DNA of 64,000 nucleotides, taken from positions 1,894,828-1,958,827 of the forward strand of contig NZ_CP011941.1 in NCBI RefSeq assembly GCF_001040845.1, read 5' to 3'. The notes under the pieces were generated by a model. It was not told the origin of the DNA, searched no databases, and worked only from the letters and a program-made list of their open reading frames with translations. This stretch comes from Synechococcus sp. WH 8020. GTDB lineage: Bacteria > Cyanobacteriota > Cyanobacteriia > PCC-6307 > Cyanobiaceae. Shown here piece by piece: positions 1-12,623 of the stretch (position 1 is the first letter of the stretch; the number at the start of each line of letters is the position of its first letter). Position numbers and translations under genes: made by a program.

Positions 1-1136
1 TGAAAGAGATGTGAGAACCAAACAAAATTGAAATCGATCTCGGCTGCTCCTTCGGCATTCACAGCCTGCATCGGAAGACGAACGCCGAAATATTTTTCAA
101 TAAATGATTGAATAACAGGCAGAACAAGATCTTTTGGCAAGCTCAAAACCTTCGAGCCATCGAGATCACGGAGCACATCTGTTCGCGATTCAAATGCAAG
201 AAAGCTATCGACAGATGCATCGGCAGCAATCCGGTGACATCGATGCACATCATCCCGGCGAAAAACTAATCTCATATTGGAAATATCGCGGGTGTACGTT
301 GGCGATGTGGATTGCATGCCAAGAAGAAAGTTGCCAGAAGAGCGGCCATTTTTCGTGACATCACACATTCTCGGTCCATAGACAACACAAAAATCCTCGG
401 AGCGCTCCAACACCTCTTCTACATCCTGTCGCCTCAAGAGATGAAGTTGTCGCATCACAGGAAACTCATCACCATGACTGTATTCCTTGATGTTGACGCC
501 AGGTAACCACGCAGGAAGAGTAAAGCGATTAACAAACAGACGCATCAGCGACAAGACAAAGTAAATGGTGATGTGCTTATTTTTTACGACCAACAATCGT
601 TGCAGCAGAGAAGGATAGAATGCTCTTTTTCTGTAGTGTTTGCTTTCAGTAAGTGGATCCGGTCCAAAAACACCGTTAACGCCTAGTGAGCGAATCCAAT
701 CAATAGGGAGCAACAAAACTTCCCTAACAAAACTTGTAAAAATAGAAACCAGAGAAAAGCCTGTTTGGGAGCGATGGCGGAATTCACGATGGATGCGATA
801 ACGAGGATTAACCCAAAACAACTCCGTTAGCAAATCGCCTGCAAAACGTAGAAAGCGAACAATAAATTCAATCAACTGCAGACTATATAAAAACAGCATT
901 CGCGACGAACGCATCAAGGAATAGAGAAGTAGCGCTGCAAGCAAAAGCAACTCATAATGCGACAGCAATGCATCAACAAAAGGTTCGATTCGTTGACAAG
1001 ATGACTCAATCCATGCGCCAACACTTCCCAAAGCGACATCGACAAGTGAAGACAGATCCTCTGAAATGCTGAGGACAGGAGTGATGGTGGATGGCACCGA
1101 CATGAAAGCAAGAGAGTGAATCAGATGACTAGCCAT
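1..1136 (-). CDS. Membrane-anchored P450-like oxygenase (LDS-type), partial
   Basis: An uninterrupted minus-strand reading frame runs from an ATG at 1136 to the window edge (about 378 codons); it has no stop in the window, so the C-terminus, including any haem-binding cysteine, is not visible. Residues about 60-75 form a hydrophobic segment (YELLLLAALLLYSLM) followed by more hydrophobic helices, suggesting membrane attachment. From about residue 225 the sequence resembles the cytochrome P450 domain found in linoleate-diol-synthase-like proteins: DFCVVYGPRM, FLLGMQ, YTRDISNMRL, FRRDDV and then LPVIQSFIEKYFGV. The gene starts 5 bases after the Dyp peroxidase stop, so the two are probably co-transcribed. 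Substrate unknown; a lipid or fatty acid is a guess from the family. Identification is from motif memory only. Confidence 0.7.
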   Translation of the reverse strand, partial: MASHLIHSLAFMSVPSTITPVLSISEDLSSLVDVALGSVGAWIESSCQRIEPFVDALLSHYELLLLAALLLYSLMRSSRMLFLYSLQLIEFIVRFLRFAGDLLTELFWVNPRYRIHREFRHRSQTGFSLVSIFTSFVREVLLLPIDWIRSLGVNGVFGPDPLTESKHYRKRAFYPSLLQRLLVVKNKHITIYFVLSLMRLFVNRFTLPAWLPGVNIKEYSHGDEFPVMRQLHLLRRQDVEEVLERSEDFCVVYGPRMCDVTKNGRSSGNFLLGMQSTSPTYTRDISNMRLVFRRDDVHRCHRIAADASVDSFLAFESRTDVLRDLDGSKVLSLPKDLVLPVIQSFIEKYFGVRLPMQAVNAEGAAEIDFNFVWFSHLF

Positions 1137-1141
1137 AAGGA

Positions 1142-3052
1142 TCAAAAACGGTTCTCAGCTAACAAGCGGATCGCTGAAAGGCTGGGTACAAAGAAATAAG
1201 CACCACCTCGACACACCACTGGCTGTGGGGTGGGCTTGGCTACAAAAGGAAGCGTGCATGAACCATCTGGCCCTTCAGATGAGATCATCACTTTTGTACT
1301 CTTCCTATCACTCGCCACAGAAGGATGGAGTGCACCAGCGATAGGACAGATGTCATTCCCTAAATTGAAATCGGATCCATAGTTCAACCACTGCTGCTGC
1401 ATAAACTCAAACTGCCTTGCAAGATCTGCACAAATAGCGACAAAAAAAGTTCCTCGTTCTGAATCAGCTGAGATGGATGAATCATGATCAATGGGATTCT
1501 CGTTCATCAGCTCCGAAGGTGAGCCATAGGTCATGCCACGCCTTAAAATTCGACGACGGTTCACAAGCAGAGAGCTTGCTTGAGATGTTTCTGACGGATC
1601 GGAATCATTGCGCACTGAAGGATCACCACTATCTCGGGGATTACTACGACGAATATGTGCGGCAAATGGGCACCTTCTGCCTTTTGTATCATCAGACTCA
1701 AAGGTAAAGCGTGTAAATTTAGTTTTAAATTGTTTCCAAGCTTCTTTTGCACTAGGCCCACCCTTTTGAGCCTCGCCTGCCAATGTCAGGAGACGTACTC
1801 GAAAGCTCAGCCATGATTCATACGTCGGAGCATGCACCAATGGCGTGCCATCATCCCAACGTCCAACAAGTTTCGCACGAAGAACTTTTAACGCTTTGGT
1901 GAATTGAGAAGCAGCGGAAGGTTGCTCAGAAGATGATGAGCATTCAACCTGATCAAGCCAATGCTCCATCAATGGAGTCTGATTCACCAAGGCATTATGA
2001 AAGGCGGTGACATTCTGCTCTAGTTTACGAACAGCCATGAATGTTCCATTTTTGCTGAAGGTATAGGGCATTGGATGGCACGTTGTTTCCTGAGCTTCAT
2101 TGGGATAACCCAAGAGGAATTCTCCTGGGGCGATCGGTCTCCACTGACCACAAGAGAGATGACCTTGCCCTTGTGCCATCTCAGCTTGAAAAGCAGCTGG
2201 ATATTGACCATCAAAAACAGGATCTCCGATTCCATCGAAGAATCCAAAGTGTTCATATTCGCTATATCGCAAATCTGTAAGTTCTGCCGATGAAGCAACA
2301 TACCGGCTCTTTTTTTGGTTATCTAAGTCTGCTAAATACTGATCATCACTAATACCAGAAATTGCAAGATCCTGGAGTCGCGAACGGAACAATGATTCAC
2401 ACTCAAGCCATTTCGATTCAGGATCAGCACTGGAGTGTCCCGTCAGAGCAACCAAACGATGCAGTTCAGCCTGATCAAGTAAGCGCCTGGACTCTTGATC
2501 CAGATTTTCAATCATCATGGATCGGGCTAACTTAAAAGTCTCTTGACAATGATAATCAGACTTTGAAAAGGATTCACCTCTACGCAGACAAACCTTTTTC
2601 AAACAAGAATTAAATGCAACACGCAAGCTGATCATCAAATGCGTAGTTTGTTCGTGTTGATCATCCTTCCAGGCATTATTCCAATCAAGTCGATTATCAT
2701 TCAACATTTCAGCTCTATCCCACATTCCATCTAAGAAAGCATCTGGAAATTGACGAAGAACTGAATTGGGAACGCCTAAAGCCTTAAGACCTGATGCTGT
2801 AAAAGCAATATTGAGCAGAGCATCTGGAGTATCCTTTCTCAGCTGATCCGCAGGAATCTGCATTTGATCGGACCGCTTTGACGGGAAAAACTGAGCTGTC
2901 GTGATTTGAGGCTGAATCCAGCTCAGAAATTTCTGAGCTTCCTCTTGGTCACGAACATGAAAAATGAAGTGACGTGCAAGAGGGTAAGAAGATCGACCAT
3001 AGGGGAGCAAGATGTTTCCCTGGATATCAAGGCGGTCCAAAATTGTTGTCAT
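1142..3052 (-). CDS. Dyp-type haem peroxidase
   Basis: A 636-residue protein of the dye-decolourising peroxidase family, long form. The family hallmark GXXDG is present as GFFDG near residues 270-274, with the catalytic Asp at about 273. The proximal haem histidine lies in CPFAAHIRRSNPRD (His about 466), and the C-terminal FFVAICADLARQFEFMQQ and GNDICPIAG segments are also typical. These enzymes oxidise organic substrates with hydrogen peroxide. I chose the ATG at 3052 because the family N-terminus (DIQGNIL) begins just after it and it lies 4 bases past the upstream stop; an ATG at 3124 would overlap the upstream gene by 68 bases. No signal peptide is visible. It sits between a two-gene set of related unknown proteins and a P450-like gene, suggesting a multi-step oxidation. 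Confidence 0.9.
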   Translation of the reverse strand: MTTILDRLDIQGNILLPYGRSSYPLARHFIFHVRDQEEAQKFLSWIQPQITTAQFFPSKRSDQMQIPADQLRKDTPDALLNIAFTASGLKALGVPNSVLRQFPDAFLDGMWDRAEMLNDNRLDWNNAWKDDQHEQTTHLMISLRVAFNSCLKKVCLRRGESFSKSDYHCQETFKLARSMMIENLDQESRRLLDQAELHRLVALTGHSSADPESKWLECESLFRSRLQDLAISGISDDQYLADLDNQKKSRYVASSAELTDLRYSEYEHFGFFDGIGDPVFDGQYPAAFQAEMAQGQGHLSCGQWRPIAPGEFLLGYPNEAQETTCHPMPYTFSKNGTFMAVRKLEQNVTAFHNALVNQTPLMEHWLDQVECSSSSEQPSAASQFTKALKVLRAKLVGRWDDGTPLVHAPTYESWLSFRVRLLTLAGEAQKGGPSAKEAWKQFKTKFTRFTFESDDTKGRRCPFAAHIRRSNPRDSGDPSVRNDSDPSETSQASSLLVNRRRILRRGMTYGSPSELMNENPIDHDSSISADSERGTFFVAICADLARQFEFMQQQWLNYGSDFNLGNDICPIAGALHPSVASDRKSTKVMISSEGPDGSCTLPFVAKPTPQPVVCRGGAYFFVPSLSAIRLLAENRF

Positions 3053-3056
3053 GGCA

Positions 3057-4232
3057 TTAACGAACAGAAAAGTATTTGCCAGGTTGCAAGGAAGGGGAGT
3101 GACTATCGGAAGGCTTGTGGTCATCTAAAAAACTCGCAAAGCGCTGGCGAATTCTGCCCTTATTAAACCGATCGCTTTCCTGCCAATCGCCATACATCTC
3201 TAGAAACTTTTCTTGAAGATACAATGACTTTGCAATTGACTTTAAATCAACACCATCAATTTGAGACAGCGGCATATTTGCGCTATTGATGAAATAACGC
3301 CATGCAAACATAAATAAAACCACGGAGGCCATAGCCAGCCCACCAAAGCCTATGAGCCCCAATGGATTCAATGCTTGGTAAACATCACTCAAATTCACTT
3401 GCGACAATGCTGTGTCATATAAAAGATTGAAAATCAAACTTACGAAACAAATAGCCAGCACGAGAAGTGCCATAACAACTAAAATGAAGGGCAAAATTCC
3501 TACAATGATCAGACCCCATCGATTTTTAAATTCAGAGGGCGACAGTTGATCTGTTGATGGGTCCCAACGTTGCACTTTGTCGGCAACCCAAAAGTAAGCA
3601 GAGAATGGATATGTTGTCTCAACTTCATGAGACAGGAGCAATCGCTCTACTGAGTGATAAACATGCCAATACTGTGTATGTGCCTCCAAAGTCCTTTGGT
3701 CCTGAGGAGGCGGTGGAAGAGAAAATCCCTCACAATGATGAAAAATTTTAGTCAATTCCTCGCTGGCATAAGGCCATAACTCAGACAAATAGTCTTGAAC
3801 GCAAGACGTTGAGCTGGGATGACAATCAAAATCAATAGCGATTAGGAGATAGGGTGACTCAAGTGCGTCGATTCTGTCTTTTTCCGAGAGAAGATCCTTA
3901 CCAGCAAATAACGTCCTTAGAAAATCTATTAGAGAATCATTCCGGCGGCGGCCATTATAAAAGAGCTGGTCAACAACAACAAATCTGGCAAAATGTGTAC
4001 AGCGTGTATGATCAAATAAGTGCAAGTTATCTAATTCTGACACCGGAGAATCAATATTTTTCAGGAACGAATCAGATAGTTGATTCAAATAGTCTTTGAG
4101 GTGATGAGCATACGATTGAGTAGCATCACAAGGGTCAGAAACATTCTCTTGACACGCCAAATTAGTATATAGTCCGGTCTTGATCGGCAACAATGCCGTC
4201 AACTGATAAAACCCTGCCTCATGGCTCGGCAT
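3057..4232 (-). CDS. Membrane protein with domain shared with the next upstream gene
   Basis: A 391-residue protein I do not recognise as a named family. The N-terminal half is soluble-looking and contains HFARFVVVDQLFYNG followed by YLLIAIDFDCH and a YLSELWPYA segment. Around residues 240-310 there are two strongly hydrophobic stretches (LIIVGILPFILVVMALLVLAICF and GLIGFGGLAMASVVLFMFAW, each read as one membrane pass), and the C-terminus is charged. The N-terminal half matches the pattern of the protein encoded at 4274-4906 (HFARWVILP, then YLLFVSNFNG, then YLDEFSDV), so the two are probably paralogues, one membrane-bound and one not. It precedes the Dyp peroxidase by 4 bases and is likely part of that operon. 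A role in holding or delivering a substrate to the peroxidase/P450 pair is possible but unproven. Confidence 0.75.
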   Translation of the reverse strand: MPSHEAGFYQLTALLPIKTGLYTNLACQENVSDPCDATQSYAHHLKDYLNQLSDSFLKNIDSPVSELDNLHLFDHTRCTHFARFVVVDQLFYNGRRRNDSLIDFLRTLFAGKDLLSEKDRIDALESPYLLIAIDFDCHPSSTSCVQDYLSELWPYASEELTKIFHHCEGFSLPPPPQDQRTLEAHTQYWHVYHSVERLLLSHEVETTYPFSAYFWVADKVQRWDPSTDQLSPSEFKNRWGLIIVGILPFILVVMALLVLAICFVSLIFNLLYDTALSQVNLSDVYQALNPLGLIGFGGLAMASVVLFMFAWRYFINSANMPLSQIDGVDLKSIAKSLYLQEKFLEMYGDWQESDRFNKGRIRQRFASFLDDHKPSDSHSPSLQPGKYFSVR

Positions 4233-4273
4233 TTCAAAGAGTCTCCTTGGAAAATTGAATTAAGTAAGAAGCA

Positions 4274-4906
4274 TTACTGAAAGTTTTCAGGCGAGTGTGG
4301 AGGTGGCTTACCGGTGGAAGGAAAATGATTCGCCAAATTCGCCATGACAGACTGAAAGTTTTGAAAAAACAAATCATCCTTAGTTGCATCATTCTTATCT
4401 GGGTCTTGATTAATCTCAGACAACTGCTCTTCTAAATAATTAATTGCCTTACGAACTTTCAAGGCGCTGGAAACATCTCGCAGCGAAAATCCCGGAAGGG
4501 CGTTGTAATAGTAAGAACACTCTATTGAATTGTCGTCGATATAAGATTTGAATGGGCTGCTTGGGATCGACTTTGGATAGCCAATACTGCGATACCACAT
4601 GGTATCCATCCCCAATGAAATCACATCCGAAAACTCATCCAAATAGACATCCCAAGTCCCATTGAAATTTGAGACAAACAAAAGGTACGAGTAACGCGTT
4701 TTAAACTTTTCAGAGCGCCCGGGCCATCGATCCTTAGGCAAAATCACCCATCTTGCGAAATGGATCATTTGAAGATTCACCAACGGGAAAACCTGTGCTG
4801 GAAGGGAACGATATAAAGCAAACAAAAAACGGTTAATCCAAGAGCACCACAGAGGAGTAACGACCGTCAGGGCAGAAGATTTACCAACAATGTCGCCTAA
4901 TGGCAT
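4274..4906 (-). CDS. Conserved protein of unknown function, paralogue of the neighbouring membrane protein
   Basis: A 210-residue protein, first gene of the probable four-gene cassette reading toward base 1. Its core (LTVVTPL near residue 13, IHFARWVILP near 48, YLLFVSNFNGTWDVYLDEF near 72) aligns in order with LTALLPI, HFARFVVVD and YLLIAIDFD of the protein at 3057-4232. It lacks the long membrane segments of that protein; the C-terminus is polar and ends in a proline-rich tail. The ATG at 4906 is the first in frame that keeps the shared N-terminus. The gap to the next gene is 41 bases. Function unknown. Confidence 0.7.
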   Translation of the reverse strand: MPLGDIVGKSSALTVVTPLWCSWINRFLFALYRSLPAQVFPLVNLQMIHFARWVILPKDRWPGRSEKFKTRYSYLLFVSNFNGTWDVYLDEFSDVISLGMDTMWYRSIGYPKSIPSSPFKSYIDDNSIECSYYYNALPGFSLRDVSSALKVRKAINYLEEQLSEINQDPDKNDATKDDLFFQNFQSVMANLANHFPSTGKPPPHSPENFQ

Positions 4907-6197: not shown

Positions 6198-7814
6198 TTA
6201 ATCGAATCCAGGCTGATGGCTTGGAATCGCGATCCAGCTGATCTGATGTTGACGCAGCTTGTCGTCTGTACCGACGAGTGGCTGTTCTGAATGGCCATCT
6301 CCATAAAGAGCCAGCTCGTAGAGGAGATTCATGCAGAACTTGCCCTGAAAATAACCACCATGGCCATCGATCGTGCTGAGTTTCAACGACCCAGCAAGCA
6401 TCGCCATGAGCGTGGCGGCGTAGTTGAAAAACCTCTGCACGGCATTGCGAGCCGTGAACGCACTGAGATAACGCCCGCCATCGTCGTAGTCGGTGCAGTC
6501 GATCACATTGAGCGGGTAGCCGATCCAGCGTTGACAACGGAATGTTCTTTTATCACAGAGGCTTTGCGTCCCCAATGCGCCATGGAGTTCAAGGTCACTC
6601 AGCTCGCCGACACGCTTGCCGTAACCCTGACGTCGCGTGCGCCCTTTGATGCTCAGATTGCCGAGCCGATAACCACCAATGCGCGTACCCGAGGGAAACA
6701 CGAAGTAATTGGCCAGGGTTGAGGCGAGCCGCAACACCATATCGGCATCATTGACAAACAAAAATGTCTGGCGAAAACGGCGCAGGCAACTGGCCAGGTA
6801 ATTGGACCGTCCTGTGGTGATGGTCCAGACAGGAATGTCGGCAGCAACGAGGATCAAACGATCAAGGCTAAAAAGATCGCCAATCTGCGCGAGCTGTTCT
6901 CGCTGTCGTTCGTTCGCTTGCTCCTCGAAGGACGGCGGGCAGCTTGGACCACCAAAGGGACCCGACTGGGCATTGGCCGACCAGAGGTGAGAATCCGCTT
7001 CGGGATCGAAGACATTGGTGAGAACACGGATGAGCATGGTGGTCAGGAACGTACCCATGCTGTGACCCAGGAAACTGAGGCTAATCCGCGGCTCCTTACC
7101 GCTCTGAAGATCAGACAGATAGCTGCGATCGGGGATGATCTCCTTGACCAGGTGGTGGAGAGCTCTAACCATCTCAACGGCATCGAACACACCAAACGTG
7201 CTGGCGCGTTCACGGTCGCGAAAGTACGTGACCATACGCAGCAGCATCAGTGTGATTCCGATCCCCAGACACAATTGACCGATGGCAGCGAGCCAACCGG
7301 CAGCCAAGAACGCGAGCAGGCTGCCGAGAGCGAACAGCAACCACAGGCCCATCGGCATGGCACGGATCCAGCACAAAGGTCCTCCTGCACCAATCCGCTC
7401 GGACGGCCAGGCGTAGTGCAAAAACAACACATAATCATCAGGGGGTGATTCCGTGAGCCGACAGGCGTCGTCTCTGAACTTGCGTTCCGCCTGCTTGTAT
7501 TCCTCCCTCACACTCTTCAAGGGAACGTTGTAGCCGTGGATGCGAACCACCACCCGCACACGCTGGGACTTGCCGTTGCTCTGCTGCCGTTGGAAGTACT
7601 CGGACAGATGGGTGCGCAGCTGCGCGAAGTTCTGGGCGTTGTTGTCAAAATCCGCTCGAAAATCGGGTTGTGTCAGAGCCAAGCGAAAGGGCCTCTCGGC
7701 CTCCAGGGGTGCGGTACTGCAAACCAGCATGTGGCTGAAGCAGGGGGGCTGCTCTGAAGGGAAGGGCTGGTATTTGAGAAGAGCGAGTTCAGGTTGCCGC
7801 GTGGTGATTGTCAT
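6198..7814 (-). CDS. Membrane alpha/beta hydrolase (DUF900-like esterase/lipase)
   Basis: A 538-residue protein with an alpha/beta hydrolase core. RVRVVVRIHGYNVPLKSVREEY near residue 85 looks like the oxyanion region, and the nucleophile elbow is GHSMG at about residues 250-254 (Ser about 252). Between them, around residues 153-195, two hydrophobic stretches (MGLWLLFALGSLLAFLAAGW and IGQLCLGIGITLMLL) suggest a membrane hairpin, so the enzyme is probably inserted in a membrane. Substrate unknown. The frame opens at a TTG at 7865, but the first ATG at 7814 is preferred; neither has a strong ribosome-binding site. It is divergent from the gene beginning at 7995. Confidence 0.75.
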   Translation of the reverse strand: MTITTRQPELALLKYQPFPSEQPPCFSHMLVCSTAPLEAERPFRLALTQPDFRADFDNNAQNFAQLRTHLSEYFQRQQSNGKSQRVRVVVRIHGYNVPLKSVREEYKQAERKFRDDACRLTESPPDDYVLFLHYAWPSERIGAGGPLCWIRAMPMGLWLLFALGSLLAFLAAGWLAAIGQLCLGIGITLMLLRMVTYFRDRERASTFGVFDAVEMVRALHHLVKEIIPDRSYLSDLQSGKEPRISLSFLGHSMGTFLTTMLIRVLTNVFDPEADSHLWSANAQSGPFGGPSCPPSFEEQANERQREQLAQIGDLFSLDRLILVAADIPVWTITTGRSNYLASCLRRFRQTFLFVNDADMVLRLASTLANYFVFPSGTRIGGYRLGNLSIKGRTRRQGYGKRVGELSDLELHGALGTQSLCDKRTFRCQRWIGYPLNVIDCTDYDDGGRYLSAFTARNAVQRFFNYAATLMAMLAGSLKLSTIDGHGGYFQGKFCMNLLYELALYGDGHSEQPLVGTDDKLRQHQISWIAIPSHQPGFD

Positions 7815-7994
7815 GGTGAATGGCTCTGCACGCTGGTCTGCCCTGGGGTAGCCATCTCCGATCAATCAGCGCCCGAATCGAACCGCTTCCTTCCAATTCA
7901 TTAGCAGTGTTGCTGACCGGAACGATCGTTCAAACGATTGCTCAGGCACTGATCGTTGAAGATGATGAACCAGGACCACGATTGATCGCACACC

Positions 7995-11940: not shown

Positions 11941-11984
11941 TTCTTGCGCTATGAGAATCGCGAAGGATTCCAACTAACAGAACC

Positions 11985-12020
11985 AATCAGCGGCGCGCAC
12001 TTCTGACGCGTCCGCTGATT
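11985..12020 (+). terminator. Possible stem-loop terminator after the haloperoxidase gene
   Basis: AATCAGCGG (11985-11993) pairs exactly with CCGCTGATT (12012-12020) around an 18-base loop, 45 bases after the haloperoxidase stop. No clear T-run follows, so termination is uncertain. Confidence 0.4.
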
Positions 12021-12065
12021 ATTTGCGTTAGCCGCCCCCCTTACAAAAACTGAAGTCGGATTGCA

Positions 12066-12623
12066 ATGAACGTACGCGAAAGATTGAAGGCAGGCCGTGC
12101 CACAACGAAAGATGCTTTGGAGTTGTTCGATGTACTTAAGCCCGTGGATGTTGACTTCATGCTTGGCAATTGGAAGGGCGAAGGCTTTCATACCAACCAC
12201 CCAATGGATGGACTTCTCGAGACCTATCACTGGCATGGGAAACGCTTTGAAAGTCTCGAAGATGTTCATCCCTTGGTGTTTTCAACACGTCGCGGAGGCG
12301 TTGCCAACGTCAACCCCGGCTTGATGGGGTCGGCGTTGAATCTGCCCATGCCAAAGTCAGCGATCGTGGGTCGCATCTTCCAAGCACTTCTACCTTTTCT
12401 TACAACATCCCAGTCCAGGGCTCGGTTGCGCATGACAGCCTATCGGGGAAAGTCGAGCGCAACCATGATTTACGACCAGCTGCCGATTAACGACGTGTTT
12501 CGCAAAATTGATCGGAATACCGTATTCGGCGTTATGGATTTGAAAGGAATGAAGTTGCCGTTCTTCTTCATCCTTCAGCGTGAGCAGGGGAGCGAACATT
12601 TTCTTAGAAGCGAGCGGCCTTAA
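12066..12623 (+). CDS. GXWXG/DUF4334 domain protein
   Basis: A 185-residue protein. Residues 30-50 (DFMLGNWKGEGFHTNHPMDG) contain the GXWXG motif that names the N-terminal domain of this family, and the C-terminal half (ARLRMTAYRGKSSATMIYDQ, then DLKGMKLPFFFILQRE) fits the companion DUF4334 domain. The biochemical role of the family is not established; a small lipocalin-like binding barrel is plausible. No signal peptide. The ATG at 12066 follows a weak CGGA ribosome site. It lies 125 bases after the haloperoxidase in the same direction, with an inverted repeat between them, so co-transcription is uncertain. Confidence 0.8.
   Translation: MNVRERLKAGRATTKDALELFDVLKPVDVDFMLGNWKGEGFHTNHPMDGLLETYHWHGKRFESLEDVHPLVFSTRRGGVANVNPGLMGSALNLPMPKSAIVGRIFQALLPFLTTSQSRARLRMTAYRGKSSATMIYDQLPINDVFRKIDRNTVFGVMDLKGMKLPFFFILQREQGSEHFLRSERP

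Follow-up and report, generated by a model that had tools for sequence, protein, structure and literature searches.

What brings a DyP-type haem peroxidase, a cytochrome P450 (P450) and two accessory proteins together at one locus of Synechococcus sp. WH 8020? The window analysed here is a stretch of 64,000 nucleotides from this cyanobacterium (contig NZ_CP011941.1, positions 1,894,828 to 1,958,827 of the forward strand), and at its start lies an operon-like block of minus-strand genes transcribed in the order acc2, acc1, DyP, P450. The four genes and their gaps are as a preliminary description had given them, with 41 bases between acc2 and acc1, 4 between acc1 and DyP, and 5 between DyP and the P450 if the latter starts at ATG 1136. 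The alternative P450 start, TTG 1145, gives a 4-base overlap with DyP; a longer DyP reading frame, starting at 3124 and overlapping acc1, is unlikely. We conclude that acc2-acc1-DyP-P450 very probably form one functional unit, as their order in distant genomes suggests, and we favour the reading, to which we give an even chance of being right as a whole, that the cassette encodes a membrane-held module of a DyP and a peroxide-using P450 with a lipid or isoprenoid substrate. The features are as follows (aa, amino acids), numbered from the first base of the window except in the last line.

1..1145, minus strand: P450, first 381 codons, with possible starts ATG 1136 and TTG 1145; the remainder lies left of the window
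924..980, minus strand: P450, predicted hydrophobic segment in the N-terminal extension, residues 56-74 (Kyte-Doolittle scan)
1142..3052, minus strand: DyP-type haem peroxidase, 636 aa (Pfam DyP_N 6.9e-14 and Dyp_perox_C 2.5e-5, both above cut-off; matches in the PDB)
2234..2236, minus strand: DyP distal Asp273, in the GFFDG motif (alignment)
2027..2029, minus strand: DyP distal Arg342 (alignment, 18 sequences)
1655..1657, minus strand: DyP proximal haem ligand His466, in HIRRSNPR (alignment, 18 sequences)
3057..4232, minus strand: acc1, 391 aa, with a predicted N-terminal alpha+beta domain, an HFARF motif and two predicted membrane segments
3456..3512, minus strand: acc1 predicted transmembrane segment 1, residues 241-259 (Kyte-Doolittle scan)
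3306..3362, minus strand: acc1 predicted transmembrane segment 2, residues 291-309 (Kyte-Doolittle scan)
4274..4906, minus strand: acc2, 210 aa, with an IHFARWVIL...LLFVSNFNGTWDVYLDEF domain; used as the marker of the cassette
G000:C1:1892218-1894029 (L002:9391-11202), left of the window: PAS-GGDEF-EAL gene

Is this arrangement kept beyond one genome? The four genes and the fifth gene behind them stand in the same order in two relatives, one of the same genus (84-94% identical) and one of another genus of the family (~30-52%). Carriers of acc2 amounted to 10 of 400 sampled Cyanobiaceae genomes; a scan of 84,980 species, one genome each and restricted to sequence in which either of two peptide patterns occurs, gave 21 loci; and 200 genomes of the Falsiroseomonas family, which we take to be Acetobacteraceae, gave nine close and 13 distant matches. 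Counted over the 33 loci with a close acc2 that remained after removal of duplicates, mainly from Cyanobiaceae and proteobacteria, the co-occurrence that the preliminary description had named as a check is borne out: acc1 follows acc2 in 32 of 33 (the exception is L089), DyP then follows in 29 of 33 (L044, L049 and L059 end within 260 bp and L089 is rearranged), and P450 is the next gene in 22 of the 28 loci whose sequence runs on for more than 300 bases past DyP. At seven of eight proteobacterial junctions examined the P450 may begin before DyP ends, with a four-base overlap. Carriers are cyanobacteria, proteobacteria and one Verrucomicrobia metagenome-assembled genome (MAG), whose contig ends after acc1 and holds acc2-acc1 only. 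The cassette, described earlier as a system that would be new in picocyanobacteria, is accordingly not special to them, acc2 being carried by proteobacteria as well. In viral contigs none of 27 pattern matches is a relative, in a scan that sees only the two peptide patterns. The rearranged locus L089 (genome G696), on a contig of 7 kb, has an acc2 fragment that continues straight into the end of a P450; its 208-aa open reading frame at L089:3595-4221 matches both the acc2 and the P450 profiles and reflects an internal deletion or an assembly error.

Plasmid records hold relatives in which the parts are physically joined. They were searched with acc2 (14 records) and with a relative that carries both acc half types in one chain (46 records), and 10 regions were opened of the 44 matches listed. 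In three alphaproteobacterial genera a plasmid encodes one chain that runs, from N- to C-terminus, through a P450, an acc-type region with membrane segments and a DyP; these are Pararhizobium qamdonense (1423 aa), Sulfitobacter pontiacus (1620 aa) and Novosphingobium aromaticivorans (1443 aa). The cassette profiles match these chains at E 1e-71 to 3e-39 for the P450, 6e-58 to 1e-42 for the DyP and 1e-13 to 6e-9 for acc2, and Pfam places the P450 above cut-off in two of the three (Novosphingobium is below) and Dyp_perox_C just above in all three. The acc1 profile reaches E 0.01 on none of the three chains. With a profile of the two-half relatives, every one of these chains matches strongly in the acc2-like half (iE 1e-46 to 7e-57), and the acc1-side half is clear in Pararhizobium (3e-7) and weak in Novosphingobium (0.007) and Sulfitobacter (0.09). 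Elsewhere a long acc protein, a DyP and a P450 are three consecutive genes (Skermanella), acc and DyP are joined in a protein of 974 aa (Rhizobium), or acc2-acc1-DyP stand with neither a P450 nor a catalase-family gene (Granulicella). DyP adjoins or is fused to acc in all 10 regions opened, and in four of them (Acinetobacter, Rhodococcus, Sphingomonas and Paracoccus) a catalase-family gene occupies the place of the P450 beside acc and DyP. In the plasmid loci L079, L082, L083 and L084 the catalase-family gene is identified by its annotation, and a Falsiroseomonas-family genome (L071) has a catalase-family gene by 74% identity to the Sphingomonas one, with no Pfam match. Fatty-acid genes lie near three of the four plasmid catalase-family cassettes, a count made without a control for their general frequency. 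Conservation of the order over large distances, together with single chains in three genera, supports the proposal of the preliminary description, a two-haem system split over separate chains and served by membrane-linked accessory proteins of its own.

What are these accessory proteins? Neither acc1 nor acc2 matches any Pfam or NCBIfam family above cut-off (acc1 has a weak NCBIfam CTERM match below it), the same holds for five distant acc relatives, and no solved structure is matched by the sequence of either. Two membrane segments are predicted in acc1 and none in acc2 by the Kyte-Doolittle scan. The earlier suggestion that the two are paralogous is plausible from a profile-profile match (89% probability over 137 columns; the acc2 alignment holds 20 sequences) but is not strong, as blastp between them is not significant. 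There are also relatives that carry both half types in one chain, with the N-terminal half matched weakly in most. Among the 13 distant loci of the Falsiroseomonas family, 11 encode a long acc protein of ~430-620 aa or running off the locus, and DyP adjoins the acc protein in 12; the thirteenth, L074, stops at a contig edge. In the long proteins the C-terminal half is a strong acc2 match, the N-terminal half shows a second acc2-profile match in seven of the 13 loci (below 0.003 alone only in L064, L067 and L069), and the acc1 profile matches at 2e-7 in L063 and at 2e-5 to 4e-5 in L066 and L069. The profile of the two-half relatives recognises Granulicella acc1 as the N-terminal half (2e-10) and Granulicella acc2 as the C-terminal half. 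Through such intermediates, acc1 and acc2 look like the split halves of a DyP-linked membrane protein. A role in anti-phage defence was considered and rejected, its sole hint being a weak BovA match of acc2 (E 0.00097) that we take as chance.

Is the P450 partner a genuine P450, and of what kind? It was read beyond the left edge of the window in the host genome, which is one contig of 2.66 Mb, and the complete protein has 648 aa counted from the TTG (L002:11199-13145). The haem loop that the preliminary description expected past base 1 is there, as FGHMSHVCAGK, and so is the ExxR motif; the haem ligand Cys584 and the residues E509 and R512 all lie left of the window. Pfam PF00067 matches above cut-off (E 5.4e-10), and C584, H582, G586, E509 and R512 are invariant in all 14 aligned P450s, a P450 signature. 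The picocyanobacterial copies G000, G248 and L032 have an N-terminal extension of ~220 aa, lacking in proteobacterial copies; in that of the P450 analysed here the Kyte-Doolittle scan finds a second, weaker hydrophobic segment at residues 130-148. The acid of helix I is missing in 24 of 24 aligned DyP-linked P450s (20 of the 22 cassette P450s, Skermanella and the three single chains), with P in its place in 18, L in 4, T in 1 and A in 1. Helix I reads GAVLPLINTICQ in the P450 of the window and mostly VPTLS in other copies; L094, outside the alignment, is also without the acid, and L046 is cut before the site. The threonine of the acid-alcohol pair is missing in 8 of the 24, the copy of the window included, and the pair of an O2/NAD(P)H-type monooxygenase is thus not found in the DyP-linked P450s. 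By contrast, the acid is kept in 12 of 12 control P450s, a hand-picked part of 30 control cyanobacterial P450 loci, and in all seven P450s linked to a lipoxygenase, an animal haem peroxidase or a RoxA-like cytochrome, five of which have the threonine. In a FastTree phylogeny of 43 sequences, the controls stand apart from the DyP-linked and lipoxygenase-linked P450s with support 1.000. When rooted among the controls, the tree unites every DyP-linked P450, those of the single chains too, at support 0.921; the lipoxygenase-linked group is weak (0.514). Two more P450 genes occur in the genome, at G000:C1:1675054-1676310 and G000:C1:903118-904233.

The DyP carries the residues of a DyP-type peroxidase, namely the Asp of GxxDG (D273), a distal Arg (R342) and a proximal His (H466), whose catalytic roles we take to be those of two distal residues and the proximal haem ligand. 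In an alignment of 18 sequences Arg342 and His466 are invariant and Asp273 is nearly so, one row having an assembly gap there. The NCBIfam model TIGR01413 scores 75 bits, below its cut-off of 100.5. The nearest solved structures include C/D-type DyPs, with PDB 8re2, 7anv and 4g2c among the matches, and the cassette DyPs measure ~530-640 aa. At L046:13264-13992 a second partial DyP reading frame follows directly on the first, on a contig with a run of N inside the DyP gene.

How would such a unit work? In the reading we favour, the split accessory protein acc1/acc2 would hold DyP and P450 together at the membrane, anchoring both enzymes at the bilayer and perhaps handing over the substrate. The DyP would make or consume a hydroperoxide on a membrane-derived substrate, and the acid-less P450 would accept this hydroperoxide (or H2O2) at its haem, with no need of an electron chain, to isomerise or rearrange, cleave or hydroxylate. 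Gene order, single chains, haem ligands and the missing acid are read directly from the sequences; from them we infer the peroxide use, the direction of flow and the substrate. That the P450 is peroxide-driven we consider fairly probable. We place it outside the usual NADPH/O2 cycle because the helix-I acid is missing and because no widely recurring family around the cassettes is fit to be its reductase, in neighbourhoods where no search was aimed at reductases.

Several observations weigh against this reading. The limit just stated is one of them; ferredoxins encoded elsewhere could be donors to the P450, loss of the acid is by itself no proof of a peroxide route, and the threonine of the acid-alcohol pair is retained in 16 of the 24 DyP-linked P450s. 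We know of no DyP that is a fatty-acid or lipid dioxygenase, and a substrate gene common to the loci was not found. The P450 is missing after DyP in 6 of the 28 informative loci (L043, L048, L050, L052, L086 and L090) and is therefore a frequent partner, not an obligate one, while a GGDEF-EAL gene stands behind the cassette in only 6 of 33 loci, all picocyanobacterial (L089 included). The acc1 of the window is itself unmatched by the two-half-relative profile, its link running via Granulicella. Structure prediction adds little: the acc2 model is poor (pLDDT 50), and the acc1 model (pLDDT 68.5), with a ferredoxin-like arrangement over residues 6-212, resembles ABM-type dimeric alpha+beta barrels weakly in fold comparison (3gz7, Z 6.0, rmsd 2.9 over 97 residues; 1tuw, Z 5.9). 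Foldseek gave no match of the acc1 model to the PDB at E<=0.001, VIA-align gives an equal Z to long-helix proteins, ribosome recycling factors among them, and matches at Z ~6 may reflect a common arrangement and no more.

Which substrate would fit? Searched with the P450, 388 cyanobacterial genomes gave seven matches at E<=1e-10 besides its own genome and one of the family, and all seven have a lipid- or isoprenoid-type neighbour within 1.5 kb, namely a lipoxygenase (4), an animal haem peroxidase (2) or a RoxA-like cytochrome (1), the last presumably a lipid- or isoprenoid-oxidising enzyme. In L021 the lipoxygenase is one gene away and in the others the neighbour adjoins. None of the 30 control P450 loci lies near a lipoxygenase, animal peroxidase or RoxA-like gene (Fisher p 1e-7, with loci that are not independent), and they have no catalase-family, DyP or acc neighbour either; the control flanks reach ~1.5 kb at most and the few neighbours of the seven matches also supplied the profiles, so that a distant lipoxygenase may have escaped notice. 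This contrast lends circumstantial support to lipid oxidation, and we regard a lipid or isoprenoid substrate as slightly favoured, with the unsaturated fatty acids of the membrane or isoprenoids such as carotenoids the likeliest candidates. The review PMC8197335 credits some class V DyPs with oxidation of beta-carotene or cleavage of alkenes.

The carriers supply a second clue, which bears on an alternative hypothesis. Photosynthetic reaction-centre genes are present in 10 of the 18 carriers outside the cyanobacteria and, within the Falsiroseomonas-family sample, in 7 of 9 close acc2 carriers versus 60 of 191 others (Fisher p 0.007, relatedness not corrected for), an association to be taken as no more than a hint of photo-oxidised lipids or pigments. 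Could the module then be protective rather than signalling? The DyP would reduce lipid or pigment hydroperoxides that arise under light stress, and the P450 would act as a peroxygenase on leftover peroxide. The membrane parts would place both enzymes at the bilayer for such a task, the DyP is a peroxidase by family, and the cyanobacterial carriers are phototrophs; yet 8 of the 18 carriers, some of them drafts or MAGs and Burkholderia and Caballeronia among them, show no reaction-centre genes, and the fixed one-to-one ratio of the single chains is not obviously needed by a detoxifying pair. We consider this clean-up role somewhat unlikely. Unlikely, and more so, is a bolder form of the favoured scheme, a new class of bacterial two-haem oxygenase in which the DyP would be a true dioxygenase on membrane lipids or carotenoids, the P450 would isomerise the hydroperoxide within one complex with it, acc1/acc2 would channel the substrate from the bilayer and, in picocyanobacteria, the PAS-GGDEF-EAL protein would couple the product to cyclic di-GMP (c-di-GMP). 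Such a system would have arisen in bacteria independently, as a counterpart of the synthesis of prostaglandins and of fungal oxylipins.

A further hypothesis is that the P450 is an ordinary monooxygenase fed by a host ferredoxin and that the DyP removes leaked H2O2. A bacterial-type P450 with the threonine mostly kept is compatible with it, but the acid lost throughout the DyP-linked P450s is kept by the controls and the sister P450s, and acc-DyP is found with a catalase-family gene as its partner, too, or with no P450 beside it. We judge this hypothesis improbable.

The genomic surroundings bear on whether the genes could instead be tailoring enzymes of a specialised metabolite, a common occupation of P450s. 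In the host the five cassette genes have 42-46% GC each, versus a median of 55.8% for 5-kb blocks of the window; in G401 and G573 the cassette has 44-45% against flanks of 55-56%, and in the other genus (G248, G684) its GC is close to that of the flanks, at 68-69%. The one-contig carriers G000 (the host), G401 and G573, which we take to be marine, have the cassette within ~12 kb of argS, an iron-type alcohol dehydrogenase gene and an ABM gene (Pfam, tblastn). In G000 and G401 the cassette has its GGDEF side towards argS, in G573 its acc2 side, so that the spot is similar, not identical; the L032 contig has an argS piece on the acc2 side. GC and location fit spread by transfer, in whichever direction. 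The patchy distribution and the AT-rich block in three carriers would suit tailoring enzymes; on the other side, no other gene family recurs in more than 6 of 21 loci with flanks of up to 10 kb (the family found in six looks, by eye, like a secreted TctC-type binding protein), and the parts also occur as one chain, which leaves this explanation highly improbable. That the genes are chance neighbours with no functional link deserves almost no credence, their order being conserved in cyanobacteria, proteobacteria and one Verrucomicrobia MAG contig and a possible P450 start overlapping DyP in seven of the eight junctions examined, and in our view the natural single chains already refute it.

What, then, of the fifth gene? 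It encodes a PAS-GGDEF-EAL protein of 603 aa, overlaps the P450 stop by 4 bases outside the window and is one of four GGDEF-domain matches in the genome. Its EAL domain (PF00563, E 1.5e-57) has the motifs EALLRW, ITES, DDFGTG, LKLD and EGVE, and its GGDEF is degenerate, reading DSDEF. As we understand these motifs, catalytic EAL residues with a degenerate GGDEF make a c-di-GMP phosphodiesterase likely. In some picocyanobacteria the co-encoded protein, if active, would reduce c-di-GMP as a reaction to the pathway or to whatever triggers it; gene order is what ties it to the pathway, and such coupling is possible, though doubtful.

Some further features of the surroundings may be recorded. In L085:6783-8516 (G573) a second GGDEF-EAL-like gene lies between argS and acc2, besides the one behind the P450. 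A 140-bp direct repeat (L015:2925-3064 and 11947-12086 in G401; 87% identical) covers part of the ABM gene and flanks the cassette region, and in the genome of the window only a 41-bp, 85% trace of it was found. Beside argS, L002:5494-6144 has a chitinase class I (GH19) match below cut-off and is 93-96% conserved in G573 and G401. The alpha/beta-hydrolase-like gene at 6198-7865 of the window (DUF900 match below cut-off; 56.7% GC) was rejected as a sixth member, having no match in the 20-kb stretches of the G248 and G573 cassettes; four of the 31 genomes of the genus have it, the G132 copy being fragmented and interrupted by stops, and a single TAA being reported for G406. A promoter scan gave no signal (10 sites versus 12.6 +/- 3.8 in shuffles), terminator-like sites numbered 16 versus 8.9 +/- 3.0 in shuffles, and the 20-kb stretch around the locus is free of tRNA genes.

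How does the cassette compare with known systems? The preliminary description had likened the P450 to that of fungal linoleate diol synthases (LDS). That label does not hold: the best 60 of 462 PDB profile matches are mostly bacterial P450s, the HxC motif is general to bacterial P450s, and the NQxQ motif is absent, which is given as the substrate recognition site 4 (SRS4, helix I) signature of fungal LDS and epoxy alcohol synthase P450s in PMC13049297, Table 3. Membership of the family is rejected as well, DyP_N and Dyp_perox_C standing where An_peroxidase would be expected, so that with a different peroxidase superfamily and no NQxQ this is not a fungal diol synthase; the comparison was made via the published motif and family, not by direct sequence comparison. 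The fungal dioxygenase-P450 fusions (DOX-CYP: linoleate diol, epoxy alcohol and allene oxide synthases), whose P450 partner is self-sufficient, share with the cassette a haem peroxidase-fold enzyme beside a haem-thiolate partner and, in the three plasmid relatives, both enzymes on one chain. They differ in that the cassette peroxidase is a DyP and not the animal-type PF03098, that the cassette has an extra acc membrane region and is four separate chains in the window, and that the order on the single chains is P450-acc-DyP.

Among bacterial systems, a passage of PMC13049297 describes a Nostoc punctiforme 10S-dioxygenase and a catalase-related hydroperoxide lyase that handle linoleate. They are two separately encoded proteins acting in sequence, as is proposed for the present enzymes, and a catalase-family gene takes the P450 place in some cassettes, a link known from gene order only; the first enzyme there, however, is a cyclooxygenase relative, and that passage mentions no acc proteins. 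Class V (C/D) DyPs share the catalytic Asp, Arg and His, with 7anv (an ancestral D-type) and 4g2c (DyP2) as near structures, whereas the cassette DyPs are tied to acc1/acc2 and often to a P450; cytochrome P450, fatty acid and fusion do not occur in the main text of PMC8197335. The EfeUOB, DtpA/GlxA and encapsulin systems likewise give a DyP dedicated partner genes, the partners there being an iron permease, a copper oxidase and a shell protein (partly after PMC8197335); none of the three was noticed around the cassettes, where no search was aimed at them. Titles and abstract beginnings of the open-access papers listed in literature searches yielded no description of a DyP-P450 cassette or fusion. 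If the favoured reading is true, the cassette would give a testable partner and substrate class to many DyPs that lack a known physiological role, and a candidate oxylipin or apocarotenoid pathway to picocyanobacteria, with single-chain proteins of ~1.4-1.6 thousand residues suited to biochemistry. By analogy, the cassette is a parallel to the fungal DOX-CYP at the level of a peroxidase with a hydroperoxide-type P450, and is not a member of that family; on the favoured reading it would be a second, DyP-based route by which bacteria couple a peroxidase to P450 oxygenation, and it would bring with it a so far uncharacterised family of membrane partners.

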